Source: Candidatus Zixiibacteriota bacterium
GTDB taxonomy: Bacteria > Zixibacteria > MSB-5A5 > GN15 > PGXB01
Length of the DNA stretch: 64,000 bases
Assembly: GCA_016933695.1 (NCBI GenBank)
Contig: JAFGAL010000015.1
Coordinates: 1 to 64,000 of the forward strand
Direction of reading: 5' to 3'
Shown here: piece by piece, positions 29,128 to 63,981 of the stretch
Position numbering within the stretch: position 1 is the stretch's first letter
Layout of the letters: each line of letters starts with the position of its first letter
Position numbers and translations under genes: made by a program
Notes under the pieces: generated by a model
What the model saw: the letters and a program-made list of their open reading frames with translations, nothing else
What the model was told of the DNA's origin: nothing
The model's database searches: none

Positions 29128-29186
29128 GACGCTTGTTAAAAACGTTTAGTATGTATTATGAATGAAAATAGTTGGGAATAAAAACC

Positions 29187-33532: not shown

Positions 33533-33548
33533 CCCCTGAGTGAATGTG

Positions 33549-34694: not shown

Positions 34695-34845
34695 CCGCGG
34701 GGATGGTCTCTTTCCCCTGTTCGGGGAATCTGCGTTTGGGCATGAAACACACCGGTTACTTCAGAGGAATAAACCATTTGTCATATCAATAGATGCAACG
34801 GAAAACAATATAATCGTACACTAGTGTTAATCAGGGTTATGTACC

Positions 34846-36396: not shown

Positions 36397-36414
36397 AACG
36401 AAAGGACACGAGAT

Positions 36415-36759
36415 ATGGAAACCTCATTTCGTTTTGGGCTGGAATTTGCGGCAATCGGCATTGTAATCGTGTTCGCCGCCCTGACATTGATTTCAGTCGT
36501 CATCTCACTGGTACGGCGGGCCGATTCCGGCTGGCAAAAGAAAGAAACCGTCCAGTTGGAGGAAGCTCTGACACGCGAGCAGAATATCGACACCACCACG
36601 CTGGTGTTGATATGTGCCGCCGCCGCGACCATGATACAGGGACGATTCTATATTCGTCAGGTCCGCCGGTTACTGCCGCGAGATGCACAGCGCGGCCCCT
36701 GGTCGGCGCAGGGCCGGGCGATTCTGCACGGTTCGCACGTCGTTCCCAAAAAGAGATAA
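36415..36759 (+). CDS. mmdD: Na+-translocating decarboxylase delta/gamma subunit (OadG/MmdD-like)
   Basis: A 114-residue protein with one N-terminal membrane helix (residues about 9-33, FAAIGIVIVFAALTLISVVISLV) followed by a charged, Glu-rich linker. It ends with the conserved tail QRGPWSAQGRAILHGSHVV, seen in OadG/MmdD subunits that hold the carboxyltransferase onto the membrane subunit. The second hydrophobic stretch (TTLVLICAAAATMI) is shorter. It lies 18 bases behind mmdA, in the expected order alpha-delta-carrier-beta. Confidence 0.88.
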   Translation: METSFRFGLEFAAIGIVIVFAALTLISVVISLVRRADSGWQKKETVQLEEALTREQNIDTTTLVLICAAAATMIQGRFYIRQVRRLLPRDAQRGPWSAQGRAILHGSHVVPKKR

Positions 36760-36797
36760 CAGCAATGTGTTCATATGATGGTTTTAGGAGATAATCA

Positions 36798-37205
36798 ATG
36801 AAACTCAAGATAACAGTTCATGGTGTTGCCTACGAAGTCGATGTGGAAGTACTCGACCCGGGTGAGGGCTTCCTGACGGCGACGTCATTGCCGCGTGCCC
36901 AGGCTCGTGTTCAGCGTTCCGTTTCAAACAGTGCGCCGACGGTTCCTCCGGCAGCCGGTCCGGCCAAAGCCGCTCCGACCGGTGGCGGCAACGGCGGCTC
37001 GGTAACCTCCCCGATTGCGGGGACGGTCGTGGAAATCAAGTGCAAGGCGGGCGACGATGTGACCGAAGGTCAGGTCCTGCTCGTCATTGAAGCCATGAAG
37101 ATGAAAACCTCCATTGCCGCTCCAACCGGCGGCAAGGTGAAATCAGTCCCGGTGGCGGTGGGTGACACGGTGCGTGAAAGTCAGACGCTCGTGGAACTCG
37201 CCTGA
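36798..37205 (+). CDS. mmdC: Biotin carrier (gamma) subunit of methylmalonyl-CoA decarboxylase
   Basis: A 135-residue biotin carrier. The N-terminus KLKITVHGVAYEVDVEV resembles the association domain of OadA/MmdC, followed by an Ala/Pro/Gly-rich flexible linker (about residues 45-70) and a biotinyl domain with Lys101 in EAMKMKTS. It carries the carboxyl group from MmdA to MmdB at the membrane. It is cotranscribed with mmdA, mmdD and mmdB. It is distinct from the carrier at 9.8 kb, whose motif reads EAMKMEN. Confidence 0.94.
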   Translation: MKLKITVHGVAYEVDVEVLDPGEGFLTATSLPRAQARVQRSVSNSAPTVPPAAGPAKAAPTGGGNGGSVTSPIAGTVVEIKCKAGDDVTEGQVLLVIEAMKMKTSIAAPTGGKVKSVPVAVGDTVRESQTLVELA

Positions 37206-37232
37206 TGACGGGGGTTCACCAGAGAGCAACAC

Positions 37233-38357
37233 ATGGAAATATTAATTAACTTTCTCCAAACCGGGGCCTTTGGCAATTTTACCATTGGTAACCTGTGTAT
37301 GCTTATCGTCGGTTGCTTCTTCTTGTACCTGGGTATCTCGAAGGACTACGAGCCGCTTTTGTTGGTGCCGATCGGCTTCGGCATTCTGGTCGGCAATATT
37401 CCCTTCGTCCAGGGCATGAATATCGGTATCTATGAAGAAAACAGTATTCTGTCCTACCTGTACAAGGGCGTGACGCAGGGATGGTATCCGTCGCTGATCT
37501 TTCTCGGTCTCGGCGCGATGACCGATTTTTCCTGCATGCTTGCCAATCCGCGTCTGATACTGCTCGGCGCGGCGGCACAGGGCGGAATCTTTTTAACCTT
37601 CCTGGGTGCGATATTACTGGGTTTCGGGTACAAGGATGCCGCGGCGATCGGCATTATCGGCGGGGCGGACGGTCCGACGGCGATTTTTCTGTCGTCAAAA
37701 ATGGCGCCGCATCTGCTGGGAGCAATCGCAGTATCGGCCTATTCCTACATGGCGCTCGTTCCGGTCATTCAACCGCCGATTATCAAACTGCTGACAACCA
37801 AGAAGGAACGCCGGATCAAGATGCAACCGGCCAAGCCGGTGAGTAAACGCCTGCGCATACTCTTTCCGATTATCGCGTTTCTCATCACCGGTTTTATCGC
37901 TCCGGGATCGATCAACCTGCTGGGCTTTCTCTTCTTCGGAAATGTCCTGAAGGAGTGCGGTGTTACCGAACGTCTGGCCAACACCGCCCGGACGGCCTTT
38001 GTGGATATCGTGACGATCCTGCTGGGTTTGACGGTGGGGGCGTCGACCGATGCCAGCCGTTTTCTCACGCCGGATTCGATCAAGATCTTCATCCTCGGAG
38101 CCACGTCGTTCGCAATCGCCACCGCCTCCGGTGTCCTGTTCGCGAAACTGATGAGTGCGGTTTCCAAGAAACCGCTGAATCCGATTATCGGCGCGGCCGG
38201 TGTGTCGGCGGTACCGGACTCGGCACGGGTTTGCCAGATGATGGGAGCCAAAGAGGATCCGAGCAATTACCTAATCATGCATGCCATGGCGCCCAATGTT
38301 GCGGGAGTGATCGGCTCCGCGGTCGGCGCCGGGATTTTGCTGGCAACCTTCGGATGA
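37233..38357 (+). CDS. mmdB: Na+-translocating decarboxylase beta subunit
   Basis: Integral membrane subunit (374 residues, about nine or more helices) that decarboxylates carboxybiotin and pumps Na+ out of the cell. It has the two family signatures: GIIGGADGPTAIFLSSK with Asp146 at the position essential for Na+ transport, and the C-terminal GAAGVSAVPDSARV. Length is typical of OadB/MmdB/GcdB. It closes the mmdADCB operon, which is followed by a strong terminator. With MutAB it would couple the succinyl-CoA to propionyl-CoA route to a Na+ gradient. Confidence 0.96.
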   Translation: MEILINFLQTGAFGNFTIGNLCMLIVGCFFLYLGISKDYEPLLLVPIGFGILVGNIPFVQGMNIGIYEENSILSYLYKGVTQGWYPSLIFLGLGAMTDFSCMLANPRLILLGAAAQGGIFLTFLGAILLGFGYKDAAAIGIIGGADGPTAIFLSSKMAPHLLGAIAVSAYSYMALVPVIQPPIIKLLTTKKERRIKMQPAKPVSKRLRILFPIIAFLITGFIAPGSINLLGFLFFGNVLKECGVTERLANTARTAFVDIVTILLGLTVGASTDASRFLTPDSIKIFILGATSFAIATASGVLFAKLMSAVSKKPLNPIIGAAGVSAVPDSARVCQMMGAKEDPSNYLIMHAMAPNVAGVIGSAVGAGILLATFG

Positions 38358-50010: not shown

Positions 50011-50934
50011 TTATACAAAGGTCTTTTGCAACTCCTCCAGCAATTCCTTCTGGCGTGGAGTGAGGGTATCCGGGACATCGATCACGACTTCGACATACTG
50101 ATCGCCCTGCGTGCCGTTGACCGACAAGCCCATTCCCTTCAGCCGGAGTTTGGTTCCCGATTTGGTATACGGCGGGATGGTCAGGTTAATCGTGCGCGTC
50201 AGCGTTTTCACCTGCACTTTGCCTCCCAGCACCGCATCGGGATAACTCACCGTCACTTTGGAATGGATATCATTCCCGCGACGTTCAAACTGCTCGCTTT
50301 TTTTTACATTCACGGTTACGATTAAATCTCCATTGCTCTGGCCGTTGTCTCCGGGAAATCCCATGCCACGGAGACGGATTTTCCCGCCGTCGGCGATGCC
50401 GGCGGGGATTTTCACCCGAAGGCGGCGCTGTTTTATTCCGGCGCCGGGATTTTTCGCGACAATAGTCTTCTCCGTCCCGCGCATCGCCTCTTCAAATGAT
50501 ACGCTCAGCGACACCGCCGCGTCGCGCCCGCGCGATGCCCGTCGCCGCGGACGGCTTCGGGCCTGCCGAAACGGCGAACCGCCGCCGAAAATGGATCCGA
50601 ACAACTCGGAAAAGACATCCATCCCCTCGGCGTTGTCGAACCGGAAAAACCGCTCGAACTGCGAGGCGTCGAATCCACCGGAATGACGCGGATCGAAACT
50701 GGGGCCGCCGGTGAATGCGCCGTACTTGCGCATGGTATCGTACTGCCGGCGCTTTTTCTCATCGCCCAGCACGTCGTACGCCTCGGAAATTTCCTTGAAC
50801 CGTTCCTCGGCGGCCTTGTCACCCTTGTTGCGGTCGGGATGAAACTGCTTGGCAAGTTTCCGGAACGCCTTTTTGATATCATCCTGCGACGCGTTTTCCG
50901 CAACACCAAGCGTTTTGTAAAAGTCTTTTGACAT
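50011..50934 (-). CDS. DnaJ-like co-chaperone, CbpA type (no zinc finger)
   Basis: A 307-residue J protein. J domain 1-70 with HPD at residues 32-34 (FHPDRNKGDK), a Gly/Phe-rich linker (GSIFGGGSPFRQA), an Arg-rich stretch (ARSRPRRRASRGRD), then two beta-sandwich substrate domains (RLRVKIPAGIADGGKIRLRG, LTIPPYTKSGTKLRLKGMG). The four CxxCxGxG zinc-finger repeats of class I DnaJ are absent, so it is class II. It follows dnaK by 91 bases across a hairpin terminator. No class I dnaJ or grpE lies in the window. Confidence 0.95.
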   Translation of the reverse strand: MSKDFYKTLGVAENASQDDIKKAFRKLAKQFHPDRNKGDKAAEERFKEISEAYDVLGDEKKRRQYDTMRKYGAFTGGPSFDPRHSGGFDASQFERFFRFDNAEGMDVFSELFGSIFGGGSPFRQARSRPRRRASRGRDAAVSLSVSFEEAMRGTEKTIVAKNPGAGIKQRRLRVKIPAGIADGGKIRLRGMGFPGDNGQSNGDLIVTVNVKKSEQFERRGNDIHSKVTVSYPDAVLGGKVQVKTLTRTINLTIPPYTKSGTKLRLKGMGLSVNGTQGDQYVEVVIDVPDTLTPRQKELLEELQKTFV

Positions 50935-50996
50935 CGTTGAGTATTCTCATCTCCCTTCCACATACAGCCTACGCCAAAGCAGACGTTTTGTCAATG

Positions 50997-51021
50997 AAAA
51001 CGGGGCCTTACGGCCCCGTTT
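50997..51021 (-). terminator. Terminator hairpin between dnaK and the J-protein gene
   Basis: On the minus strand a 10-bp perfect stem AAACGGGGCC/GGCCCCGTTT with a 4-base loop, ending in four T. It lies right after the dnaK stop and probably lowers expression of the downstream genes. Confidence 0.65.
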
Positions 51022-51025
51022 CCCG

Positions 51026-52933
51026 TCACTTCTCATCAACCACTTCGTAGTCGGCATCGACCGTGTCGTCTTTGCCGCTTTCGGGGCCGCCGGGCGACTC
51101 CGGACCGGGGTTTGCCCCCGGTTGCGGTCCGGCCGACGCCTGTTGATACATATTCGCGGCCGCACCCTGCCAGAGCTGATTGAGTGCCTCGACCGAGGCC
51201 TCCATCTCGGCCGTATCATCAGTATTCAACGCGGCTTTCACGCGCTCGATACCCGCCTCGATTTTGGCCCGGGAATCCGCATCCAGCTTGTCGCCGTATT
51301 CTTTCAGATTCTTCTCGGTCTGAAACACCATCGCATCGGCGCTGTTGCGGACGTCTATTTTGCGACGTTTTTCCCTGTCATCCTGTTCGTGCATTTTGGC
51401 GTCATTGACCATCTTGTTGATATCGGCCTCATTCAAACCCGACGACGCCTCGATCCGGACGTTCTGCGACTTACCGGTGCCGAGGTCCTTGGCGGTGACG
51501 TTCAATATGCCGTTGGCATCGATATCGAACGTCACCTCGATCTGCGGCATACCGCGCGGTGCGGGCGGAATCCCATCAAGGATGAATTTGCCGATCGTCT
51601 TGTTGTCGATCGCCATCTCGCGTTCACCCTGCAGGACATGAATATCCACCGCCGGCTGACTGTCGGACGCCGTCGAAAAAACCTGCGTTTTTTTGGTCGG
51701 GATGGTCGTGTTGCGTTCGATCAACCGCGTCGTCACCCCGCCCAGCGTTTCGATACCGAGCGACAGCGGCGTCACGTCCAGAAGCAGAACATCTTTGACG
51801 TCACCGGTCAGCACCCCGCCCTGAATCGCCGCGCCGACCGCAACGACTTCATCGGGATTGACGCTCTTGTTCGGTTCCTTGCCGAATAACTGCTTGACCA
51901 GCGAGACGACTTTTGGCATACGCGTCATGCCGCCGACCAGGACAACGTCGTCGATATTGGTGAACGCAATCCCGGCATCGTCGACCGCCTTGCGGCACGG
52001 TGCAATGGTGCGTTCCAGAAGGTCATCCACCAACTGCTCGAATTTGGCGCGCGACAGAGTCAGATTCAGATGTTTCGGCCCATTGCTGTCGGCGGTGATA
52101 AACGGCAGGTTGATAGTCGTTTCCATCGTCGACGACAGCTCGATCTTGGCCTTCTCCGCCGCCTCTTTCAAACGCTGGATCGCCATCGGATCGCGCGACA
52201 GGTCGATTCCCTCCTGCTTCCGAAACTCGTCGACCAGCCAGTCGATAATGCGCTTGTCGAAATCATCGCCGCCCAGATGCGTGTCGCCGTTGGTCGAGAG
52301 GACCTCGAAGACCCCGTCGGACAATTCCAGGATGGAAATATCGAACGTGCCGCCGCCGAGATCATACACCGCGATCTTGCCGGTTTTCTTCTTGTCGAGA
52401 CCGTATGCCAGCGCCGCCGCGGTCGGTTCGTTAATGATCCGTTTCACTTCCAGTCCGGCGATGCGCCCGGCATCTTTGGTCGCCTGACGCTGGCTGTCAT
52501 TGAAATAGGCCGGGATCGTAATCACCGCCTCGGTGACTTTGGTGCCGAGATAATCCTCGGCGGTCTTTTTCATTTTTACCAGCACCATCGCCGAGATCTC
52601 CTGCGGCGTGTATTTCTTGCCGTTCATCTCGACCGTGGCATTGTCGTTGTCTCCGGCCACGACCTTGTACGGGAAGTTTTTCGTCTCGGAGCTGACCTCG
52701 CTGAACTTGCGGCCCATGAACCGCTTGATCGAAAAGATCGTGTTCATCGGGTTGGTCACTGCCTGACGTTTGGCCACCTGCCCAACCAGTCGTTCGCCGT
52801 TTTTGTCGATCGCCACCACCGACGGAGTCGTGCGCGCCCCTTCGGAGTTGGTGATCACGACCGGATCCTTGCCCTCGATTACCGAGACACAGGAGTTGGT
52901 CGTTCCCAAATCTATGCCGATTATTTTACTCAT
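51026..52933 (-). CDS. dnaK: Hsp70 chaperone DnaK
   Basis: ATP-dependent chaperone of 635 residues. The nucleotide-binding domain has [46 protein letters not shown]; the substrate domain has [17 protein letters not shown] and RNTTIPTKK; the C-terminal lid ends with a Gly/Pro-rich linker and acidic tail [10 protein letters not shown] close to the usual EEVxDxxK. ATG 52933 with AGGG 9 bases upstream is preferred to an in-frame GTG at 52942. hsp20 lies upstream and the J-protein gene downstream. Confidence 0.98.
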
Positions 52934-52955
52934 CGATATCACCCTTTCTTACCTG

Positions 52956-52986
52956 AAAAAACGGGCGAGTCGTTCCACTCGCCCGT
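52956..52986 (-). terminator. Intrinsic terminator between hsp20 and dnaK
   Basis: Minus-strand 10-bp perfect stem ACGGGCGAGT/ACTCGCCCGT with a 6-base loop, directly followed by T5-6. It follows the hsp20 stop by 32 bases, so dnaK is transcribed by readthrough or from its own promoter. Confidence 0.9.
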
Positions 52987-53018
52987 CTCGTGTTTGTAAC
53001 GGTTGCCCGATCTCGCGA

Positions 53019-53462
53019 TTATTTGACCTGAACCGCGATTTCCTTCGGTTTGGCCTTCTCCAACTTCCGGAGAGTGACATTCAACACCCCGTCCTTGTAG
53101 TCCGCCGAAATATTGTCGCCTTCGACATTGTCGGGCAGTGTGAACGACCGCGAGAAGGAACCGTAGATGCGTTCGGCTCGGATATAATTCCGGTCCTTAA
53201 TCTCGGATTCCTGTTTCCGTTCACCGCTGATGCGAAGCACGCCGTCCTCAACCAGCACCTTGATGTCGTCCTTTTTCATGCCCGGCAGTTCCACATGGAG
53301 ATTGATCGACTCCTTGTCCTCAACAATGTCCACCCGGGGCATGAAATCACAGCTGGCGTCATTCTTGAATACCGGCGCGCGGAAAAACGAATCCAGCACC
53401 GAGTCAAAGTCCTGCGAAATCCGATTCAGAACGCGATTGGGGTTGTAACGTACCAGTGTCAT
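53019..53462 (-). CDS. Small heat-shock protein Hsp20
   Basis: ATP-independent holdase of 147 residues. The alpha-crystallin domain runs from about residue 40 (PRVDIVEDKESINLHVELPG) to 135, with SRSFTLPDNVE and the A-x-Y-x-(D)GVL motif ADYKDGVLNVTL. The last residues AVQVK are shorter than the classical IxI tail. AGGAGG lies 8 bases before the ATG. The 221-base region upstream has a -24/-12-like element and TGACA boxes. It heads the minus-strand chaperone cluster. Confidence 0.96.
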   Translation of the reverse strand: MTLVRYNPNRVLNRISQDFDSVLDSFFRAPVFKNDASCDFMPRVDIVEDKESINLHVELPGMKKDDIKVLVEDGVLRISGERKQESEIKDRNYIRAERIYGSFSRSFTLPDNVEGDNISADYKDGVLNVTLRKLEKAKPKEIAVQVK

Positions 53463-53530
53463 CTCACTTACCTCCTCTTTACAAGAGTTTTATTGATGTT
53501 TTCTTTTTTTCATCTTTCGCTTATGATTAT

Positions 53531-53546
53531 ATCAATTGGCGTGCCA
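53531..53546 (-). promoter_or_regulatory. Sigma-54-like -24/-12 element overlapping a TATAAT
   Basis: On the minus strand TGGCACG-CCAA-TTGAT fits the -24 half of the sigma-54 consensus fully and the -12 half except that GC is GA. TATAAT overlaps its end and could be a sigma-70 -10, though no good -35 is seen. Start near 53521 gives a leader of about 58 bases. Confidence 0.4.
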
Positions 53547-53596
53547 AAAAATGTAAGGCATTAACTTACAACAAGATAATAAATACATGATAATAT

Positions 53597-53676
53597 TGAC
53601 ATGTCACAGTATGCCAGTAAGGCAGAACATGACAGCCATAATGACATACGCCAATGCCAGATTGACTGAAATGTCA
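53597..53676. promoter_or_regulatory. Cluster of TGACA/TGTCA boxes upstream of hsp20
   Basis: Inverted repeats TGACATGTCA (53597-53606) and TGAC-N6-GTCA (53663-53676), with two direct TGACA copies between (53630-53634, 53642-53646). They lie about 50-145 bases upstream of the -24/-12-like element, where enhancer-binding activators usually sit. Confidence 0.4.
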
Positions 53677-53683
53677 GGCAGTG

Positions 53684-55888
53684 TTATTTTGATTGACGAG
53701 AGAGTATCTCTTCGGCCGTTTTGCTCAGTTTGGAACCGCCAAAAAACAGCTTCTGCGATGCCGAGATCGATTCTGAGAAGTCTTTAATGGTCTGTATCGC
53801 TTCCCGGTCACCAATGCGTCCCAGCGCCTTGAGCGTGGCCATTTTAAGCTCTTCACGCGACGATCGCCCTGACGTCAACTCGGAGAGCATATCATGATCA
53901 GTAAGCAATTTCGCCAGATACACTTTGGCATCGTTTCCGCCGAGTATGCCCAGTGCGGTAATGATGCGGATGATCTCGCCGCGCCGTTTTCGTGCCAGAT
54001 CAATCAGTTCCGGAACGATTTCCGCCGATCCGACAATACCCAGCGAGATTAAGGCGCTTTCACGGATTTCGGCGTCATCATCGTTAACCATTACCAAAAG
54101 CAGATCGGCGGCTTCTTCTCCGCCGATTTTTTCCAATGCCGAAACAATCGCCCTGCGGACCCGCGTATCGGAATCGGTGATATGCTGGCGAAGCACCCGG
54201 CAGGCATCGAAATCCTGCAAGGCGCCCAGAACGAAAATCGCATTGCGCACCTGATACCACAATGTATCCGGCAACTCCCGGCGCGATTCATCGCGGGCAA
54301 AATTCTTTTCATTGGCCATGAAACGACTTAAAACGTTCAGCGAGGACTTGCCCATTTCGGGCAGTATCTTAAGGACCTGCTGGCGCACGTGACGGGATTC
54401 ATGAGAAATCACTTCCGAAAGCGCAAACGCCATCTCTTCGGATCCAATCGCCACCATGATATCCCGCAAATCCTGAATATGCTGATGGTCGCCATTGATC
54501 AGGTGGTTGACCAGACCGGAGATAATCTCACTGCGATTCATCTCCTCCACGGCTTTCTTCACCGCGATGGATTCATAACACCAGATGCCCTCAGCCAATT
54601 GCCGATGCGCCGATAACGCTCGTCCCAATGTCGCGGGTATAGTCAGAATATTTTGTGACAGGCAACTTCGCACGATTTCCCAGATCAGATCGGAGAACTC
54701 GAAGGTTTCCTCATGGGAATCAAGAAATGTACATATCTTCTCCGTCAGGTATTCCAGAAGCGACGTACCGGTCAGATTCAGGCAGGAACCGACCGCGATT
54801 TTCAACAGGGCCAACGCCCTCTGCCGCAGGTCGAGGTTATTGCCGGCCAGATAATGCAGCAGACGGTCGATCACCACCTGGGCCTTGGCCTGCTGTCCCG
54901 TGCGTAATAGACGTCCGAAATGATCGGTAAACTCTCCGACATGCTGGAATGACAACAGCTGGTTGAAAAAACCATCCAGATAGCGGTCGATATTCTCGAC
55001 GGCAGTGATGCGAATCTTGCTGGCGGCGGGCATAATCGACGTATACGATGACCGGTCAATCCCGTGCGACAGGGCAATCTCATCAAGCCGACGAATGATA
55101 TTATCATGATCGGGATGATAATGCAGGGCCGCGATAAGTCGGCGGCAGGATTCGCCGTCATCCGACTCCGCCTTTTCCAGCCGTTGCGAAATCAGGGCAA
55201 CGATATCATCGGCGGGAATCCGCCCGATCTTTTCCGGAACCAGAAACGCCACCAACTGCGGATAATAATCATGACAATACCGGGCAATATAATCACCGTG
55301 GTTATCCTGCGAAACAGAGACCAACTCCGCCAGGTCTTCGTAATCATTGGGAAGGATATCAGTGATGATCCCCCGCACGGAAAAATCCCGAATGACCTCG
55401 GACGGGAACTTCCGGCCCCTTTCAAACAGCAGGTACCCGGCCTCATCGTTGACGGTGATCGTGGCGATGTTCTGGTTTGTGATATATGTCGTCAGCAGGT
55501 TCTGATAATCCCCGGACCGCAATCGCTTGACAAAACGCGCGAGAAACAGCCCCAGTTCATCCGCGGTCATGCCGGCGGAGAACAGGATATTGCCGACGTC
55601 CAGCACCTGCATGTAATCCATAATCTGATCGGTGAAAATGGACGGTTTGGTTTTTATGTTCAAGGCATACAGATGCCCGGAGGCGATATGCAAATTGACA
55701 TGTTTTTTAAAGCGAAAGATTTTCTCCATTAACAGAAAAGGACGACCGATGGCCTTGCGGGTCAGTGGATGATCGACCGAATAGATCGAAGCCTTTTTCG
55801 CGGCAATGTACAACTCCCGGAGCATTTCATGCGCCAGTTCGTTGAGATTGGTCGTCAAATCCGCTTCGGTGTACATGATTTCGTTCAT
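53684..55888 (-). CDS. HEAT-repeat protein of the envelope operon
   Basis: A 734-residue protein without signal peptide. The N-terminal 330 residues are helical with no recognised domain (AAKKASIYSVDHPLTRKAIG, FLLMEKIFRFKKHVNLHIAS). The C-terminal 250 residues are HEAT-like repeats: SRHVRQQVLKILPEMGKSSL, TRVRRAIVSALEKIGGEEAA, AEIRESALISLGIVGSAEI, REELKMATLKALGRIGDREA. It is likely a cytoplasmic scaffold. Start 55888 has GGGAG 4 bases upstream, and a single base separates it from the preceding stop. Upstream in-frame starts lie inside the propeller lipoprotein gene. It is the last gene of the operon. Confidence 0.85.
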   Translation of the reverse strand: MNEIMYTEADLTTNLNELAHEMLRELYIAAKKASIYSVDHPLTRKAIGRPFLLMEKIFRFKKHVNLHIASGHLYALNIKTKPSIFTDQIMDYMQVLDVGNILFSAGMTADELGLFLARFVKRLRSGDYQNLLTTYITNQNIATITVNDEAGYLLFERGRKFPSEVIRDFSVRGIITDILPNDYEDLAELVSVSQDNHGDYIARYCHDYYPQLVAFLVPEKIGRIPADDIVALISQRLEKAESDDGESCRRLIAALHYHPDHDNIIRRLDEIALSHGIDRSSYTSIMPAASKIRITAVENIDRYLDGFFNQLLSFQHVGEFTDHFGRLLRTGQQAKAQVVIDRLLHYLAGNNLDLRQRALALLKIAVGSCLNLTGTSLLEYLTEKICTFLDSHEETFEFSDLIWEIVRSCLSQNILTIPATLGRALSAHRQLAEGIWCYESIAVKKAVEEMNRSEIISGLVNHLINGDHQHIQDLRDIMVAIGSEEMAFALSEVISHESRHVRQQVLKILPEMGKSSLNVLSRFMANEKNFARDESRRELPDTLWYQVRNAIFVLGALQDFDACRVLRQHITDSDTRVRRAIVSALEKIGGEEAADLLLVMVNDDDAEIRESALISLGIVGSAEIVPELIDLARKRRGEIIRIITALGILGGNDAKVYLAKLLTDHDMLSELTSGRSSREELKMATLKALGRIGDREAIQTIKDFSESISASQKLFFGGSKLSKTAEEILSRQSK

Positions 55889-55889
55889 G

Positions 55890-57017
55890 TTACTCTCCCA
55901 GGCATTGAACCGATCCGTTTTGCAGGACGACAAAGACATTGGTTCCGTCGGTGACCGCCGGGAATCGAATCTCATGTTTGAAAAAGCGCCGGGAAATCAT
56001 TCGCCCGTCGGCTTTATCCAGACAGTACACATGGCGGTCAAGCGACGCAAATACCACTTTATCGCCTACCAGTATCGGTGAGGATAAGATCACCCCCTCG
56101 GTCTTGAATTCCCACACCGTCGTGCCGTCGCGTTTATCCAGCGCATGCAAAACACCGTCGCTGTCCCCGAAATACAGGCACCGATCGTCCACGGCCGGAG
56201 CGGTCCAGATTGACCGGTCAAACTGCCGCGACCAGACCGTTGATCCGTCGTTCTTCTCCACAGCATACACGCCGCCCTCGATGGCGGTCACATACACGCG
56301 ATCATTCACGACGACCTTGCTAACCAGTGGCTGTTGCAGATTCACGGCAATAATGCGCTTTCCATTCCCGGCATCGAAGCCGTATACCCATCCGTCATCA
56401 AACGGAAAATACACCGTCCCCTCGCTGAAACTCGGCCCGCCCAGGCTGTTGCCGCCGACACTATCCCGCCAGATCATGGCACCGGTCAGCCGGTTGTAGC
56501 AATAGACGCTCCCCAGCGAGGACGCGACATACACGTTGTTTTCTACTATTATCGGCGTCCCGGAGACATCCTTTAAACGGACTTTCCACAGCGACTCACG
56601 GGTATGAAGATTGAAGCAGACGAAATAGTCTTTGGGCGGCGCCACGCTGAAATAAGCCAGCGAATCAACCACCACCAGGCCGGTTTGCGCACCGGATCGC
56701 TCTTTGTGGCGTCCGCGGAATTTCCCGGTTGACGGCTCATAGAAATAGATACGCCCCCGGCTTCCCGGGATAATCAGTCGTCCCGCCCCGATAGTCAGCG
56801 GCCCGATCGGCGCCTCGGAAATCCGATCCTCCCATTTCACGTTCAAAACACCGGAAAAACCGGTTTCACTCACCGCCGTTGCGGCGGCGTCGCCACGGGC
56901 ATATTGCCAGCTCGATTCGGGAATGATTTCATCCCGTTTCAGCCGGAATTTTCTGGTACAACCGGACACAAGCAGTATGCCGATTAACACCCACGCGATC
57001 AATCGAAACCGGTTCAT
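55890..57017 (-). CDS. PQQ-type beta-propeller lipoprotein (BamB-like)
   Basis: A 375-residue predicted lipoprotein: MNRFRLIAWVLIGILLVSGC with lipobox VSGC. The mature part holds repeated seven- or eight-blade propeller units with the AxDxxTGxxxW-like signature, e.g. CFNLHTRESLWKVRL, CYNRLTGAMIWRDSV, GFDAGNGKRIIAVNL, AVEKNDGSTVWSRQF, ALDKRDGTTVWEFKT, CLDKADGRMISRRFF. The layout is that of BamB, the propeller lipoprotein of the outer-membrane assembly machine. The start codon overlaps the stop of the Omp85-fusion gene (TGATG). This coupling to a barrel gene supports a BamB-like role, but that is inference. Confidence 0.85.
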   Translation of the reverse strand: MNRFRLIAWVLIGILLVSGCTRKFRLKRDEIIPESSWQYARGDAAATAVSETGFSGVLNVKWEDRISEAPIGPLTIGAGRLIIPGSRGRIYFYEPSTGKFRGRHKERSGAQTGLVVVDSLAYFSVAPPKDYFVCFNLHTRESLWKVRLKDVSGTPIIVENNVYVASSLGSVYCYNRLTGAMIWRDSVGGNSLGGPSFSEGTVYFPFDDGWVYGFDAGNGKRIIAVNLQQPLVSKVVVNDRVYVTAIEGGVYAVEKNDGSTVWSRQFDRSIWTAPAVDDRCLYFGDSDGVLHALDKRDGTTVWEFKTEGVILSSPILVGDKVVFASLDRHVYCLDKADGRMISRRFFKHEIRFPAVTDGTNVFVVLQNGSVQCLGE

Positions 57018-59812
57018 CAGAAATTCCATCCGAAGAAAAAGTCAAAGTCGGTTCGGTCGCTGATATTATTGAAATCCGTGGTCCGGGAGAAATCAAAACG
57101 CAGGAGAATCATCCCCCCCAAAGCGACCCGGAATCCGGCGCCGAATGAGCCGATAAACTGATCGAACTCGTCTTCCCAGGCCGAGCCGGTATCGAAAAAC
57201 AGCGCGCCACGGATGGCCTGAAAACCGATACCGCCGATCGGAAATCCCACCAGTAAATTATCTATCAAAGGGAAACGCAATTCGTGAGAGGCGAACAACA
57301 CATTGCGGGTGTACCATTCGCGACGGTCAAACCCGCGGAATGACCAGCTCCCGCCGAAATAGATGCGCTGAGGTTCGTCGCCGGATGAGCTGTAGGCAAA
57401 CAGCCGCGAGGCAAACGCCGAAAACCGCCCCAGTCGGATATAGTGGCGAAGGTCAACCAGCCCCATGCGATTGTAAAGCCGGCCTTCATTCACTGCGGAG
57501 GTGACTCCGACCGTGACATTGTACCGATGCCCCTCGATCGGCCCGGAAAGATCCCAGAGGCTGTTATCGGAGACAAACGACAGGTAATTGGACATAAGGA
57601 ATGCTTCCCGGCGTTTTAAAAACATCCAAACGTCCTTGTCCGAATAGCGCAGATACGTGCTGGTTTCAATACGGTTGAATTTGGAAAGCGGATAATTCAG
57701 ATAGACCAGTCCGCCGACCTGACGCTCGAAATAATACCCCTCATAATCATTATAGTACTCATTATAAAAATGATATCCGCCCACGCCCCAGTTGACTCGA
57801 CGCTTTTTGTTCAGATAGGTCACGCCGACATTGAAACTGGACAGAAAATCATCCTTGGTCTCGGCCGTGTTGGTTAATAAGAAATAGAAAATGTTATCGC
57901 CGAGCATGTCGGACATCGCCATTTGCAGTCCGCCCAGTGTCCCGTAGACGGGATCATAGCCGATTGCCGACTGCGCGATATCGAACGAGTATTCATTGTT
58001 ATAATGCACGGTTGAGCGGACCGATTCGTTCGCCAGCATCCCCGGTTTCCAGAATACCTTGCCCTGAGGGGGATCATCCGCCGCCAGCACCAGCGAATCG
58101 TTCAGGGTTGTCTTGTAAATGTGATAACCGAAATCCTGATACCCGCCGAAAACCAACTCCTGGTTGACCTCATCGATCCTGGGATCATACGCTCCGGTCA
58201 ATAGACTAGTGAGTTTATTGATCGAACGATCCGGATTGAGACGAAAGATATTAAACGCACCGTCACGATCCGACGAAAACAGGATTCCCTGTGCGCCGGC
58301 ATCGGGCGTGATATCTCGCCAGTTGCCTGAGGTTATCGGTACCGGCTCTCCTCCGTCGCGCGGGATCGTATACAGATTCATGGCGCCGATGTCGCCGTCC
58401 AAACACCGATTCGACGAGAACACCAGCGTGTCTCCGGAAAGCAAGAACGCCGGATCGATATCATGATACCAGTCGTCGGTGATCTGCGTCAGATCACCGG
58501 TTAACAGGTTTATAAGATAAATATCGGTGACACCGCTTTTCGGCGCACCGCTGAACACTGCGCTTTTGCCGTCGGGTGAAAATCTCGGTGAGGTGACACT
58601 GATCAATCCCGGCAGTTCGTATTTATGAACGATTTTGCGATCGGTAATATCATACAGGTACAACACATCGGTTTCGGCAGATTTGGAAGAAAACAGCACC
58701 ATCCCGTCGTTGTTGGCGTCGATGCCGCTTTGCAACAGGTGCAACGACTCGAATCCGGCAGTGCGTTCGCCTTTGAGTATCGTCTGCAGTTTCAGTTTCT
58801 CGCCATTGGGGTGCATCATATACAATCCCGAGTACCCCATTTTATTGGCCTTGAAAACAATCCAGCGCCCGCCGTTCTTGCCATTATTCAGCGTTATCGG
58901 GACTCCTTTCACGGAATACCCGCTTCGGGTCAGCTGTTGGGTCTCATTCTTGGCCAAACCGCCGCCGGCCATTTCCGGGAAATAGCGCTTTTTCAGGTGG
59001 TATTCCCATTTTCGTGAGACTTCCTTGAGATCATCTCCCAGAGTGATTTCCACGATTTCATCGAATGACCGGGACTTCCACCAGTTCTCCAGAAGCAAGA
59101 CCAGCTTGTCGGAACCGTAGTGGTCGTTGATGAACTCGCAAATCGACTGCCCAAGTTTGTACATGAAATACGTCCCGGAAACCATATACATTTCGGGGAT
59201 CGTTATCAACCGTCCCGAAAGCACCATATCCTTGACGACCATGTCGGCATCGGTGTCCCACTCGATCGACCAGAACTCGGCGATCCCCTCGATAAACCAG
59301 AGCGGCGGCGCCGCCATGCGCATGAAGCGTTGTTTGGTCATGACGGTTTGCAGTTTGGAGATGGTGAACACGTGCACCAGCTCATGCCGGATGACATGGG
59401 CGAAATCGCGATAAGAGCCGTTGTAGGGAACCACGACTCGTCCTTTAAGAAACTCGGTAAATCCGCCCACCGATTCGGGCAGAAGCGACGTGGTCACATT
59501 GGTCTGCGTGAAATAATTCCCGGAGCTGTAAATGATAAGCGGGATCGGTTTATAGACCTCATGTTTGAATTTGCCGGCGAGAACGTCGTAACTGTCTTCT
59601 GCCAGACGGGCCGCAATTCGCGCGATCATATTCTCTTCGGGGTAAAAGAAAATGCGGAAATGCTCGGTTTCCATCACCTGCCAGTCGAAATTCGTATACT
59701 GCACTTTGTTTTTGCCGAAATAAAACTGCCCCCACGAAGCCGACGGCAGACAGCAGGATACTATTACGATTGTCAGTACCACTGTTATGCGGGTCGCCAG
59801 ACGAGTCATCAT
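57017..59812 (-). CDS. Metalloprotease-propeller-Omp85 barrel fusion protein
   Basis: A 931-residue outer-membrane protein with three parts. After a signal peptide (MMTRLATRITVVLTIVIVSC, then CLPSASWGQ) comes a gluzincin metalloprotease domain with HELVH (His143-His147) and downstream WFIEGIAEFW (third ligand Glu). Residues about 310-620 are TolB/WD40-like propeller repeats (SPRFSPDGKSAVFSG, DIDPAFLLSGDTLVFSS, GILFSSDRDGAFNIF). The C-terminal third is an Omp85-type barrel with GGSWSFRGF (RGF 826-828), FDTGSAW, and a terminal Phe. No POTRA domains are visible. An upstream ATG (59872) adds 20 basic residues; 59812 is preferred. The BamB-like gene overlaps its stop. Confidence 0.88.
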   Translation of the reverse strand: MMTRLATRITVVLTIVIVSCCLPSASWGQFYFGKNKVQYTNFDWQVMETEHFRIFFYPEENMIARIAARLAEDSYDVLAGKFKHEVYKPIPLIIYSSGNYFTQTNVTTSLLPESVGGFTEFLKGRVVVPYNGSYRDFAHVIRHELVHVFTISKLQTVMTKQRFMRMAAPPLWFIEGIAEFWSIEWDTDADMVVKDMVLSGRLITIPEMYMVSGTYFMYKLGQSICEFINDHYGSDKLVLLLENWWKSRSFDEIVEITLGDDLKEVSRKWEYHLKKRYFPEMAGGGLAKNETQQLTRSGYSVKGVPITLNNGKNGGRWIVFKANKMGYSGLYMMHPNGEKLKLQTILKGERTAGFESLHLLQSGIDANNDGMVLFSSKSAETDVLYLYDITDRKIVHKYELPGLISVTSPRFSPDGKSAVFSGAPKSGVTDIYLINLLTGDLTQITDDWYHDIDPAFLLSGDTLVFSSNRCLDGDIGAMNLYTIPRDGGEPVPITSGNWRDITPDAGAQGILFSSDRDGAFNIFRLNPDRSINKLTSLLTGAYDPRIDEVNQELVFGGYQDFGYHIYKTTLNDSLVLAADDPPQGKVFWKPGMLANESVRSTVHYNNEYSFDIAQSAIGYDPVYGTLGGLQMAMSDMLGDNIFYFLLTNTAETKDDFLSSFNVGVTYLNKKRRVNWGVGGYHFYNEYYNDYEGYYFERQVGGLVYLNYPLSKFNRIETSTYLRYSDKDVWMFLKRREAFLMSNYLSFVSDNSLWDLSGPIEGHRYNVTVGVTSAVNEGRLYNRMGLVDLRHYIRLGRFSAFASRLFAYSSSGDEPQRIYFGGSWSFRGFDRREWYTRNVLFASHELRFPLIDNLLVGFPIGGIGFQAIRGALFFDTGSAWEDEFDQFIGSFGAGFRVALGGMILLRFDFSRTTDFNNISDRTDFDFFFGWNF

Positions 59813-59927
59813 GAATCCAAACTTTGTTATCCGATTGCCAATCAGCCGCTTTCCATAACGGCGGAGATACATTATTCATATCGGCATAATGCCGTTCGGT
59901 TTACAATCCCCGATCCGCTTTCCGGAA

Positions 59928-60914
59928 TTAATGTATCCCGGTGTCGTATCCGCAGGCAATGCAAATTCCGTTTCGCAATCCCGCCGGATTGATCCGATAC
60001 CCCCGGCGCGAGATCACGACCGCTCCACATGACGGGCAACGCGTATCCGCTTTGTCGGTTAAATGCACATTGCCCAAAAAGACATAATCCAGTTTCTTTT
60101 TTGCTATTTCGTAGGCGCTTTCAAGCGTTTCCAGCGGTGTGGGAGGATTGGTCATGCGATAGGTCGGGTAATAAGCCGAAAAATGCAGGGGGATGCGCGG
60201 TGACAGCCCGGCAATGAAATCGGTCAATCGTTCAAAATCATCCGAGGTGTCATTGCGGCCCGGAATCACCAGATTGGTCACCTCAATATGCGTTCCATAC
60301 TCGTACAAGCGCGAGATTGTATGCACAACCGGAGCCTGTTTTCCCTTGCAAATGCGTTTATAGAAATCTTCATTCATGGCTTTTAAATCGATGTTGGCGG
60401 CGTCAATAATCGGTAGTAACTCCTCCAGCGGTTCCGGGTTTATGTATCCGTTGGAAACCAGCACGTTTTTTAAGCCGGCCTCATGTATTAAACGCCCGGC
60501 CGCCCTGATATATTCAAACCAAATTAACGGTTCGGAATACGTATACGCGATTCCGATTGAATTTCGTCCGGCGGCAAGCTCGACCAGCTCATCCGGTTCA
60601 ACATATCTCGTGGGGACTTTGGTCTGTGAAATATCCCAGTTCTGGCAGTTGGCGCATTTGAAATTACAGCCATTGGCGCCGGTGGAGAAGATGACCGATC
60701 CCGGATGAAAGTGATACAGCGGCTTTTTTTCTATCGGATCATAGGCTCCAGTCACCAGTTCGCCGTAATTTTCCGTAACCAGCGTCCCCCCCCGATTGAA
60801 TCGGGTTCGGCAAATTCCCACCTTGCCTTCGGTTAGAAGGCATTCGGCCGGGCAAAGCCAGCACCGGACTTTACCGTCCGCGAGTTTTTCCGAATATGCC
60901 GCCGGTATTATCAT
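59928..60914 (-). CDS. amrS: AmmeMemoRadiSam-type radical SAM enzyme
   Basis: A 328-residue radical SAM protein of the AmrS/PflA-like group. The 4Fe-4S motif is CNFKCANC (Cys83, Cys87, Cys90), followed by QNWDISQ. An N-terminal CWLCPAECLLTEGKVGICR cysteine set and the C-terminal zinc-ribbon-like CPSCGAVV...CIACGYD are typical. In other genomes AmrS occurs with AMMECR1 and MEMO homologues, neither of which is in this window. The reaction is unknown. Its ATG overlaps the stop of the heptosyltransferase-HAD gene by 4 bases, so translation is coupled. Confidence 0.92.
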   Translation of the reverse strand: MIIPAAYSEKLADGKVRCWLCPAECLLTEGKVGICRTRFNRGGTLVTENYGELVTGAYDPIEKKPLYHFHPGSVIFSTGANGCNFKCANCQNWDISQTKVPTRYVEPDELVELAAGRNSIGIAYTYSEPLIWFEYIRAAGRLIHEAGLKNVLVSNGYINPEPLEELLPIIDAANIDLKAMNEDFYKRICKGKQAPVVHTISRLYEYGTHIEVTNLVIPGRNDTSDDFERLTDFIAGLSPRIPLHFSAYYPTYRMTNPPTPLETLESAYEIAKKKLDYVFLGNVHLTDKADTRCPSCGAVVISRRGYRINPAGLRNGICIACGYDTGIH

Positions 60915-62500
60915 GGATACGATCCTTGTCCGCCCCTTACTATATAATCTACGGCTTCACCGAGATTCTCAACAATTTTTTCCGGCCAAAAGGCATACTG
61001 CCGGTCGATCAGGGATTCCTGCTGTCTTCCGTATCCGGTGCGAACCAGAATTCCGTTCGCTCCGACAACATATGCCAAAGCACAATCGGTCAGCTTATCC
61101 CCGACGACATACGACAGATGCGGATTGATATTGTGACGCCGCGCGGCCGTCTCCACCATACCGCTTCCCGGCTTGCGATCAGTGGAATGCCGGGCATATC
61201 CGGCAACCGTTCCCTTTTTATAATAGGGACAATACAGGATATCGTCAAGCGGTGCGTCCTGGTCGGCAAACAGGCGCATGACACGTGTGTTTACCGCCTG
61301 CACGGAGAGCTCGTCGAAAAACCCCCGCGCCACTCCCGATTGATTGGACAGCACGATAATCTTGTATCCGGCGCGACGGACGGCACGAATCGCGTCGACC
61401 GCGCGGGTTTCCGGCTCAACATCCGACGGCGTCGAAATAAAATACTTCTCTTTAATCAGCGTCCCGTCGCGATCGACAAACAAGGCCTTCTCCCCTTTGG
61501 AGTTTCCCGCAAGCATCTTCTGCAGATTGTCCATGACATCATTGACCTCAATCCGCGTGAAACAATACTGCGTTTCACGATGGCAGGCCTTTTGCCCGTG
61601 CAGTGAGCAGGGACGGCAGTATTCCTCGACTTCAAGCACGCGATCCTGTAATCCGCGCGGGGTAAAGCCGAGCGTCGGATGAGTCGGGCCAAACAGCGCC
61701 AGCACCGGGGTTCCCACCGAGGAGCCGAGATGCATCAGACCGGAATCATTGCTGATGAGAATTTCGGCACGCGTGATTTCGCGCGCCACGGTGATTAAAT
61801 CGGCATCAAGCAAAATCCGCAGCTTTTCCTCGGGGAATTCACTCGCCAGATCCAGCATGGCACTATCTGATGACGACAACAACAGTAAAACCGTGCCGAT
61901 ATTATCACCAATAATCCGCCGCACCAACTCACGGAACCGATCCGCCGGCCACTGTTTGGCGGGATATGATGCTCCCGGCGCAATAGCTATCAGCGGAAGG
62001 CTATCGGTTACTGTTCCATGAGAGTCATTCGAATCCGGCGGCAGATGCAAAACCGGACGACGGCAATACACGTCCCCTCCAACCGCCTCGACCGCTTGAT
62101 CATAAAGGTCTATGGCATGCGGAGGATTATCGATAATGCGATGACGTTTGACCGCCGCCATTCGCTCCAGACGCCGCTTGGGATACTGGGTTTTATACGG
62201 TGCGCTGATATAGCGGGTGATAAATTGCGAGCGGATATTCCCATGCAGATCACAGACCAGGTCAAAGCCGATTCGATCGAGTTGTTCGGCGGTATGATAC
62301 AGCTGCAAAAGCGTGATTTTCTGCGGCAACGTGATTACATCATCAACGCCCGCGAAACAGCGCACCAGTGATGCGGTACGTTCCCGTGTAAGGAAATATA
62401 TGCGCGATTCGGGGTACGATAATTTCAGATTCAGAACCGGCGCGGAGGTCAACAGCACGTCGCCGATTGCCCCCAGCCTGATGACGAGAATGTTTTTCAT
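60911..62500 (-). CDS. Heptosyltransferase (GT9) fused to a HAD phosphatase (GmhB-like)
   Basis: A 529-residue two-domain protein. Residues 1-325 form a GT-B glycosyltransferase of family 9 (ILVIRLGAIGDVLLTSAP, IAIAPGASYPAKQWP, LISNDSGLMHLGSSVGTPV then LALFGPTHP), which transfers heptose onto lipid A core. Residues 343-515 are a HAD phosphatase of the HisB-N/GmhB type (ALFVDRDGTLI, VLSNQSGVARGFF, RKPGSGM, YVVGDKLTDCALA). The zinc cysteines of canonical GmhB (CPHH, CDCRKP) are mostly lost (CPYY, STDRKP). GmhB makes the heptose precursor for heptosyltransferases, so the fusion joins two steps of one pathway. It lies between uppP and amrS. Confidence 0.93.
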   Translation of the reverse strand: MKNILVIRLGAIGDVLLTSAPVLNLKLSYPESRIYFLTRERTASLVRCFAGVDDVITLPQKITLLQLYHTAEQLDRIGFDLVCDLHGNIRSQFITRYISAPYKTQYPKRRLERMAAVKRHRIIDNPPHAIDLYDQAVEAVGGDVYCRRPVLHLPPDSNDSHGTVTDSLPLIAIAPGASYPAKQWPADRFRELVRRIIGDNIGTVLLLLSSSDSAMLDLASEFPEEKLRILLDADLITVAREITRAEILISNDSGLMHLGSSVGTPVLALFGPTHPTLGFTPRGLQDRVLEVEEYCRPCSLHGQKACHRETQYCFTRIEVNDVMDNLQKMLAGNSKGEKALFVDRDGTLIKEKYFISTPSDVEPETRAVDAIRAVRRAGYKIIVLSNQSGVARGFFDELSVQAVNTRVMRLFADQDAPLDDILYCPYYKKGTVAGYARHSTDRKPGSGMVETAARRHNINPHLSYVVGDKLTDCALAYVVGANGILVRTGYGRQQESLIDRQYAFWPEKIVENLGEAVDYIVRGGQGSYP

Positions 62501-62504
62501 TGCC

Positions 62505-63278
62505 TTATATGAAATACAGTATACCTAATATGCCAATGATAAGGCAATAAATACCGAAATATTGAAATTTCCCCTTCTTGATAATACTCAGAAGCAAATA
62601 GACGGCAAACAGTCCGGATAAAAAGGAAACTGCCGTCCCGACCGCATACTGGCCGATCAAAGTTGTGTCCAGGTCGACAATTTCACGAAGTTTGAATACA
62701 ATGGCGCCCGCAATAGCCGGAATGGAAAGCAAAAACGAAAACTCGGCGGCTTCCATCGGCTTGATGCCGACAAACATTCCGGCCGCAATCGTGGAACCGG
62801 ATCGCGAAATCCCCGGGAAAATCGCCAGCGCCTGCCCGCATCCGATTAAAAACGCCTTTCCGCCGGAGACCTCGCCGCCTTTTTTCTTTATCACTCCCGT
62901 AAGAAGCAAAACAAACCCGGTAATCACCAGCATAACCGATGTCAGAACCGGCGACGAAAAGGCCTCTTCGATGATATCATCGAACAATAGCGCCACGACC
63001 ACCGCGGGAATCGTCCCGAGGATGAGAAAGAGAATCATCCGCCGTTCGGTTTTCATGGAACGATCGAACAGCGCCAGAATCAGCCTTATAATCCGTTCCC
63101 GGAAATATATCAAAACGGCCATCAGGGTCCCGAAATGCACCAGCAACTCAAAGACCACCCCGTTCAATTTGACTCCCAGAAGATGCTGGGTCAGCACGAG
63201 ATGTCCCGATGACGACACGGGCAAAAACTCGGTCAGCCCCTGTAATACGCCAAGAATGATTGCGTCAAGATAATTCAT
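62505..63278 (-). CDS. uppP: Undecaprenyl-diphosphate phosphatase (UppP/BacA)
   Basis: Integral membrane phosphatase of 257 residues that recycles undecaprenyl diphosphate to the monophosphate for peptidoglycan and O-antigen synthesis. Both signature regions are present: QGLTEFLPVSSSGHLVL (residues 14-30) and PGISRSGSTIAAGM. Eight or so helices. Its SD (GGAG) lies inside the 3' arm of a hairpin just upstream of the ATG. It heads the minus-strand envelope operon and is followed by the heptosyltransferase gene 4 bases later. Confidence 0.97.
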   Translation of the reverse strand: MNYLDAIILGVLQGLTEFLPVSSSGHLVLTQHLLGVKLNGVVFELLVHFGTLMAVLIYFRERIIRLILALFDRSMKTERRMILFLILGTIPAVVVALLFDDIIEEAFSSPVLTSVMLVITGFVLLLTGVIKKKGGEVSGGKAFLIGCGQALAIFPGISRSGSTIAAGMFVGIKPMEAAEFSFLLSIPAIAGAIVFKLREIVDLDTTLIGQYAVGTAVSFLSGLFAVYLLLSIIKKGKFQYFGIYCLIIGILGILYFI

Positions 63279-63284
63279 AATAAA

Positions 63285-63306
63285 AGCTCCGGCGTTGACC
63301 GGAGCT
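63285..63306 (-). terminator. Hairpin that may terminate or mask the uppP ribosome site
   Basis: Perfect 8-bp stem AGCTCCGG/CCGGAGCT with a 6-base loop between the outer-membrane protein gene and uppP. On the minus strand TTTTATT follows and then the uppP ATG, so the GGAG ribosome site is in the stem. On the plus strand six T follow (63308-63313). Confidence 0.65.
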
Positions 63307-63333
63307 GTTTTTTCATTCGTTTCTCACTGAATC

Positions 63334-63981
63334 CTAAAAAGCCCGAAATTCGACACCAAAGAACAATCCGGCGTTTCCGTCGAGCTGAAATTCACCGTAA
63401 ATATTGAACTCCTCCGATGCCTCAAATTTGGCGCCGGCGTTCAGCCCGGCGAAGAAATCGGATTCATCATTATCTCCAGCTGATACTTTTTCCATGCGAA
63501 GATTGAGTCGGCCGTAAGGAATAATGCGACGGCCGGAATCGAAACGATACGGAATGGAGATGATCGCATTGCCGCCTATTTGCAACACCGAGCCACCCTC
63601 GAAATCGACATATTCCAGAAATCCGCCAAAGGCGAGATCAAACGGATTCTTACGGTTGCGATCATAATAATCCAGGAATTCGTATTTGAAATCCGCACCG
63701 AACATGATCTTGGGATCGGCGCCTTCAATATCGGGATCGAAGAAACCGAGTTTTACTCTTCCTTCGGTGTAATCCGAAAAGCCGTATGTCAGATTGCCGA
63801 ACACCGATGTTCCCTCATCGCAGATACCGATATGCCCGCCGACCAAGCCCAGACCGTATCCGCAGGCGTCGGCCGTGGTCAAATTGCCCATTGCCAATCC
63901 GGCGGCACTTCGACCCTGCACCGGTGAAACCATACCAGCCATCAAGAGCAATACCAACGCAACACTGCATTTCACCTTCAT
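63334..63981 (-). CDS. Outer-membrane beta-barrel protein
   Basis: A 215-residue exported protein with signal peptide MKVKCSVALVLLLMAGMVSP ending VQG. Barrel-like strands follow (FGNLTYGFSDYTEGRVKLGF, MFGADFKYEFLDYY, FDLAFGGFLEYVDFEGG, IIPYGRLNLRMEKV, FNIYGEFQLDGNAGLFFGVEF) with a terminal Phe (FRAF). AAGGAG is 8 bases or less before the ATG. Function unknown. It lies upstream of the envelope operon, separated by a hairpin. Confidence 0.85.
   Translation of the reverse strand: MKVKCSVALVLLLMAGMVSPVQGRSAAGLAMGNLTTADACGYGLGLVGGHIGICDEGTSVFGNLTYGFSDYTEGRVKLGFFDPDIEGADPKIMFGADFKYEFLDYYDRNRKNPFDLAFGGFLEYVDFEGGSVLQIGGNAIISIPYRFDSGRRIIPYGRLNLRMEKVSAGDNDESDFFAGLNAGAKFEASEEFNIYGEFQLDGNAGLFFGVEFRAF

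Follow-up and report, generated by a model that had tools for sequence, protein, structure and literature searches.

A metallopeptidase–propeller–Omp85 fusion and its BamB-like lipoprotein partner, a candidate outer-membrane device of Zixibacteria, KSB1 and Latescibacterota

In the window, the 64,000-nucleotide stretch of Candidatus Zixiibacteriota DNA analysed here, we find a metallopeptidase–propeller–Omp85 fusion protein (MPO) whose gene is followed directly by that of a BamB-like PQQ-propeller lipoprotein, an arrangement that recurs in three phyla. The two proteins probably constitute a device of outer-membrane assembly or quality control that is separate from the ordinary membrane-protein assembly machines. 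We put at roughly 40% the chance that the pair acts as a periplasm-facing, barrel-anchored protease or chaperone of outer-membrane protein biogenesis. Slightly more tentative is the fuller proposal that Zixibacteria, KSB1 and Latescibacterota have, apart from BAM and TAM, a third Omp85 machine of near-universal occurrence, in which the peptidase and propellers would replace the POTRA domains and the lipoprotein would complete a two-protein assembly and quality-control device.

Domain architecture of MPO

MPO is encoded on the minus strand, like all the features of the cluster described below, by an ORF of 931 codons for residues (57017–59812). Its hydrophobic N terminus is typical of a Sec signal peptide (residues ~1–28; 59729–59812) with a putative cleavage site, and orthologues keep the mature start Q(F/Y)YFGKNK. 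A Peptidase_MA-type domain follows at residues ~45–290 (58943–59680), which matches Peptidase_MA_2 (PF13485) at 28.9 bits, just below the Pfam cut-off of 32.4. The same family is matched by 11 of 12 orthologues (best E value 8e-12) in a Pfam scan of 12 rows of our 67-row alignment. Its cut-off is passed by some relatives in Latescibacterota and KSB1, and scores among relatives reach 48.8 bits. PF00149, which we take to be a metallophosphoesterase family, has no Pfam match in MPO.

Two motifs mark the peptidase domain. The first is the zinc-binding HELVH (residues 143–147; 59372–59386), with H143, E144 and H147 invariant in the 67 aligned sequences, and the second is WFIEGIAE (residues 172–179; 59276–59299), where W172, E175, G176, A178 and E179 are invariant in the same set. 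Assigning by motif from the gluzincin families, the third zinc ligand is likely E175 or E179. HExxH is kept in 67/68, 30/30 and 24/26 full-length MPO proteins of the three phyla and EGxAE, like it, is nearly invariant across the family, so that selection preserves the active site.

Residues ~299–569 (58106–58918) form a TolB-like β-propeller that matches PD40 at 41.5 bits (Pfam cut-off 20.9) and TIGR02800 at 75 bits. The C-terminal part of the protein, residues 609–931 (57020–57988), is an Omp85-type 16-strand β-barrel that scores 27.6 bits against PF01103 in the genome profile search (cut-off 24); most of the relatives scanned also lie above this cut-off. The barrel carries the RGF-type motif of Omp85 loop 6 as GGSWSFRG (residues 820–827; 57332–57355), with G820, G821, W823, R826 and G827 invariant in the 67 sequences. 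Pfam detects no POTRA domain (PF07244) in MPO, the peptidase and propeller occupying the region ahead of the barrel, and the score against the BamA equivalog TIGR03303 is 17 bits, below the cut-off of 297.

The AlphaFold2 model of MPO, built with 67 orthologues in the alignment (pLDDT 83, pTM 0.79), displays a helical domain at residues 45–290, propeller strands at 299–569 and 16 long strands at 609–929. In Foldseek searches, TolB structures are the best matches of the propeller (E value 8e-11), and the barrel retrieves BamA and TamA; for BamA barrels in isolation, the target-normalised TM score reaches 0.60. Confidence is low in several stretches of the model, among them the linker at ~599–616, the signal region and two peptidase-domain loops, so that the mutual orientation of the domains is not fixed by it. 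A sequence-only reading of this DNA had proposed an HELVH peptidase, a TolB-type propeller and an Omp85 barrel with the RGF loop, without POTRA domains; profiles, model and Foldseek matches together support that architecture, and the predicted structure contains both the 16-strand Omp85-like barrel and a helical domain at the position of the peptidase.

The BamB-like lipoprotein and its pairing with MPO

The MPO gene ends in a TGATG stop/start overlap (57015–57019) with the gene of a 375-residue PQQ-propeller protein (55890–57017; PQQ_2, 113 bits). This protein has a VSGC lipobox with Cys20 (56958–56969), and a lipobox-like motif is present in all 20 sequences that we inspected. Its AlphaFold2 model is of high confidence (pLDDT 95.8), and its best natural fold matches in Foldseek are YxaL and BamB. 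The window protein thus has both a lipoprotein signal and a BamB-type PQQ-propeller fold; its BamB equivalog score is 128.7 bits, below the cut-off of 285.2.

The coupling of MPO to this lipoprotein, likewise proposed from the sequence, holds in all three phyla. Among loci with room for a downstream gene, the lipoprotein gene lies directly 3′ of MPO in 71 of 72 in Zixibacteria (71 of 76 in total, four being at contig ends), 28 of 29 in KSB1 (28 of 30 in total, with one contig end) and 21 of 28 in Latescibacterota (21 of 30 in total, with two contig ends), or 120/129 across the three phyla. Exceptions include one genome in which the gene is directly downstream with a broken frame (G271), one in which it lies ~1.3 kb downstream (G260) and one in which it is on a different contig from MPO (G151). 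At L147 (Latescibacterota) and L149 (KSB1), the two loci outside Zixibacteria that have 9-kb flanks and the lipoprotein partner, none of the other window neighbours that we tested was found.

Distances between MPO proteins correlate with those between their lipoproteins (Spearman 0.53–0.76 within phyla), a correlation that mostly reflects shared descent and does not prove binding. For each of the two proteins, all 108 nearest neighbours fall within their own phylum (108/108); in the MPO tree the three phyla separate completely and in the lipoprotein tree for the most part, a parting by phylum that fits co-inheritance. Read from gene order, the adjacency of the two genes shows functional linkage and is no proof of binding. 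In E. coli, BamB binds the POTRA domains of BamA; because MPO is without POTRA domains, any docking of the lipoprotein on MPO would have to differ from that of BamB on BamA.

Distribution of the MPO family

By profile search at E ≤ 1e-20, the MPO family is found in 131 of 133 Zixibacteria genomes, including 79/79 of those with completeness of 90% or more and low contamination, as well as in 82/82 KSB1 genomes (56 with a match of at least 800 bits) and 61/64 Latescibacterota genomes (25 with a match of at least 800 bits); these tallies also count a longer paralogue. This near-universal conservation indicates a housekeeping role. The paralogue, typically of ~1,030–1,160 residues, is present in most Zixibacteria genomes. 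In the source genome (G000:C15:7537-10833, locus L046:7537-10833), it is a 1098-residue protein with the domain order of MPO and intact HHELTH and EGYAEF motifs. It adjoins murA-like and OmpA-like genes, identified by eye, and no PQQ lipoprotein gene lies nearby.

The HEAT-repeat protein and the gene neighbourhood

One base separates the lipoprotein gene from that of a 734-residue HEAT-repeat protein (53684–55888; HEAT_2, 81 bits), the junction reading TAA-c-ATG at 55892–55886. The three genes, their frames and both junctions are as first described. The HEAT protein, which the sequence-only reading listed as coupled to the fusion, is probably a cytosolic neighbour. It has no N-terminal hydrophobic stretch, and 13 of 14 sequences, the window protein and 12 of 13 others, are without a signal-like N terminus; the exception, L068, may have an over-extended start. 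In 61 Zixibacteria loci with room, its gene lies downstream of the pair in 42 and only upstream in four, and was not found in 15. Since it has no signal peptide and its gene is absent or displaced in 19/61 relatives with room, we reject the HEAT protein as a third component. A conserved stretch at its N-terminal end, several hundred residues long, has no convincing Pfam match.

The cluster sits in a block that is conserved order-wide (50011–63981), comprising genes for a small barrel protein, UppP, a GT9/HAD fusion, a radical-SAM protein, MPO, the PQQ lipoprotein, in some cases the HEAT protein, Hsp20, DnaK and CbpA. Since both sequence and gene order are conserved across the order, the arrangement is not a product of chance. 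Read by eye, the single ORF at 60911–62500 seems to join a GT9-type heptosyltransferase to a GmhB-like HAD phosphatase. DnaK, Hsp20 and CbpA belong to cytosolic families. We rejected the UppP, GT9, radical-SAM and DnaK neighbours as functional partners, as they are not kept at L147 and L149. Elsewhere in the window, a propionate/methylmalonyl-CoA block (29172–38357) encodes two mutase subunits, MeaB, a carboxyltransferase and the beta subunit of a sodium-pumping decarboxylase.

Other outer-membrane machines in the same genome

The source genome encodes an 832-residue BamA-like ORF with POTRA domains (two matches in the part scanned), followed by Skp-like and LpxD-like ORFs that were identified by eye. 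It also encodes a BamD-family protein (96.7 bits) and a TamA-like Omp85 ORF of 634 residues, with a TamB ORF one base away. With a POTRA-bearing BamA and BamD encoded, we reject MPO as a replacement of BAM, and with a TamA-like Omp85 adjoining TamB, as a replacement of TAM; because all of these are present, MPO is an addition to both. The idea that the module is self-contained and stands in for POTRA domains and BamB/C/D is not supported, given the POTRA-bearing BamA, the BamD-family protein and the TamA–TamB pair.

The sole part for which the pair could stand in is BamB, a role that is conceivable because we found no other stand-alone BamB-sized PQQ protein in this 82%-complete genome. Taken further, the lipoprotein would serve the regular BamA as its BamB, and MPO would be a BAM-associated protease. 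We consider such an accessory set improbable: at 128.7 bits the lipoprotein falls far short of the 285.2 bits required of a BamB equivalog, its linkage is to MPO and not to bamA, and at 82% completeness another BamB may simply be missing from the assembly.

A proposed role in outer-membrane biogenesis

We propose that the zinc peptidase and TolB-like propeller of MPO would lie on the periplasmic side of the membrane, where POTRA domains would otherwise be, and that MPO and the lipoprotein could together act locally in the biogenesis and quality control of outer-membrane proteins, in parallel with BAM and TAM. Unfolded barrel proteins, or clients of other kinds in the envelope, may be kept close to the barrel by the propellers, and the peptidase may cut stalled clients or process particular ones, much as BepA does on BAM. 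The POTRA domains of studied Omp85 proteins are periplasmic. The enzyme domain of PlpD, once thought to be displayed, also sits in the periplasm (PMC11116518), and the HExxH peptidase BepA acts on BAM in the assembly or degradation of LptD (PMC8423444). BepA illustrates that such a peptidase at the site of outer-membrane assembly can both assist and degrade its clients. We regard as most economical a peptidase or chaperone that is anchored by the barrel, faces the periplasm and has the BamB-like lipoprotein as its partner. Counting against this reading, assembly is already covered by BAM and TAM, and the window protein scores below the curated cut-off for Peptidase_MA.

Protein translocation is known for Omp85/TpsB barrels, FhaC among them, from a 2014 survey of the superfamily (PMC4104836), and with its intact peptidase motif MPO might instead serve in secretion or processing. 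Together with the lipoprotein, the barrel would export or surface-display dedicated substrates from which the peptidase removes a signal, or the peptidase–propeller portion would itself be displayed in a type V-like manner. This seems unlikely. The best-studied enzyme–Omp85 fusion, PlpD, turned out to be periplasmic, the lipoprotein alone of the window neighbours tested accompanies MPO at both L147 and L149, and a dedicated secretion device is seldom so near-universal.

Profile and fold both place the propeller nearest to TolB, and the paralogue of the source genome has an OmpA-like gene beside it, both of which would suit an envelope-organising anchor. Its propeller would bind peptidoglycan-associated proteins of the Pal/OmpA type, and its barrel would serve mainly to hold it in the membrane. 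Such an anchor leaves the invariant zinc motif and the invariant Omp85 FRG loop unexplained, and the fact that the two are kept together across three phyla argues against MPO being a mere anchor. In addition, we recognised no OmpA or Pal gene beside the window copy of MPO, and we give this alternative little weight. Least probable is that MPO acts on outer-membrane lipids or lipoproteins. For this one might cite the reuse of an Omp85 scaffold in lipid homeostasis by the phospholipase PlpD (PMC11116518) and the order-wide synteny of MPO with UppP and the GT9/HAD gene, UppP and heptosyltransferase-type neighbours hinting at envelope glycolipids. Against it, the enzymatic domain of MPO is peptidase-like, and neither the deeper-branching Zixibacteria loci nor L147 and L149 showed this synteny.

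If the assembly or quality-control reading is correct, the pair would show that Omp85 barrels can serve an assembly pathway without POTRA domains, or that an Omp85 protein can have built-in quality-control proteolysis. With its near-universal occurrence, intact peptidase site and conserved partner, it offers a concrete two-protein device, and suggests that an extra component is at work in the outer membranes of a large uncultured group. To our knowledge, no such component is known in model bacteria such as E. coli.

Comparison with known systems

Like BamA and BamB of the BAM complex, the MPO pair combines an Omp85 barrel with a PQQ-propeller lipoprotein of the BamB fold; unlike them, it is without POTRA domains, has a peptidase and a second propeller fused to the barrel and occurs alongside a true BamA. 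BepA is also an HExxH peptidase at a site of outer-membrane assembly, as MPO would be, but it is a separate periplasmic M48 protein with TPRs, whereas the MPO peptidase belongs to another family and is fused to the barrel (PMC8423444). PlpD, of the patatin–Omp85 type, resembles MPO in having an enzyme domain ahead of an Omp85 barrel in one polypeptide, and differs in that it has a phospholipase and a POTRA domain, where MPO has a zinc peptidase, a propeller and a lipoprotein partner and no POTRA domain (PMC11116518). The "Metallo" subfamily likewise has an N-terminal metal-dependent domain on an Omp85 barrel; in the 2014 survey this domain is PF00149 and is called a metalloprotease, whereas MPO matches PF13485 (PMC4104836).

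The closest parallel is the WD40-Omp85 subfamily of Heinz and Lithgow, described in the same survey as a TolB-like propeller and an Omp85 barrel without POTRA domains and likened to a BamA–BamB fusion (PMC4104836). Among the papers searched, this survey alone has the term WD40-Omp85, and a literature search on Zixibacteria and the outer membrane returned nothing pertinent. MPO also has a TolB-like propeller directly before the barrel and no POTRA domain. The survey treats its additional subfamilies as horizontally spread, whereas MPO is near-universal in three phyla, a contrast drawn with the survey's description rather than with its listed sequences (PMC4104836). The POTRA-less propeller–Omp85 type was thus already named in 2014, and to it MPO adds two elements that the text of the survey does not describe, a peptidase domain and a conserved lipoprotein partner.
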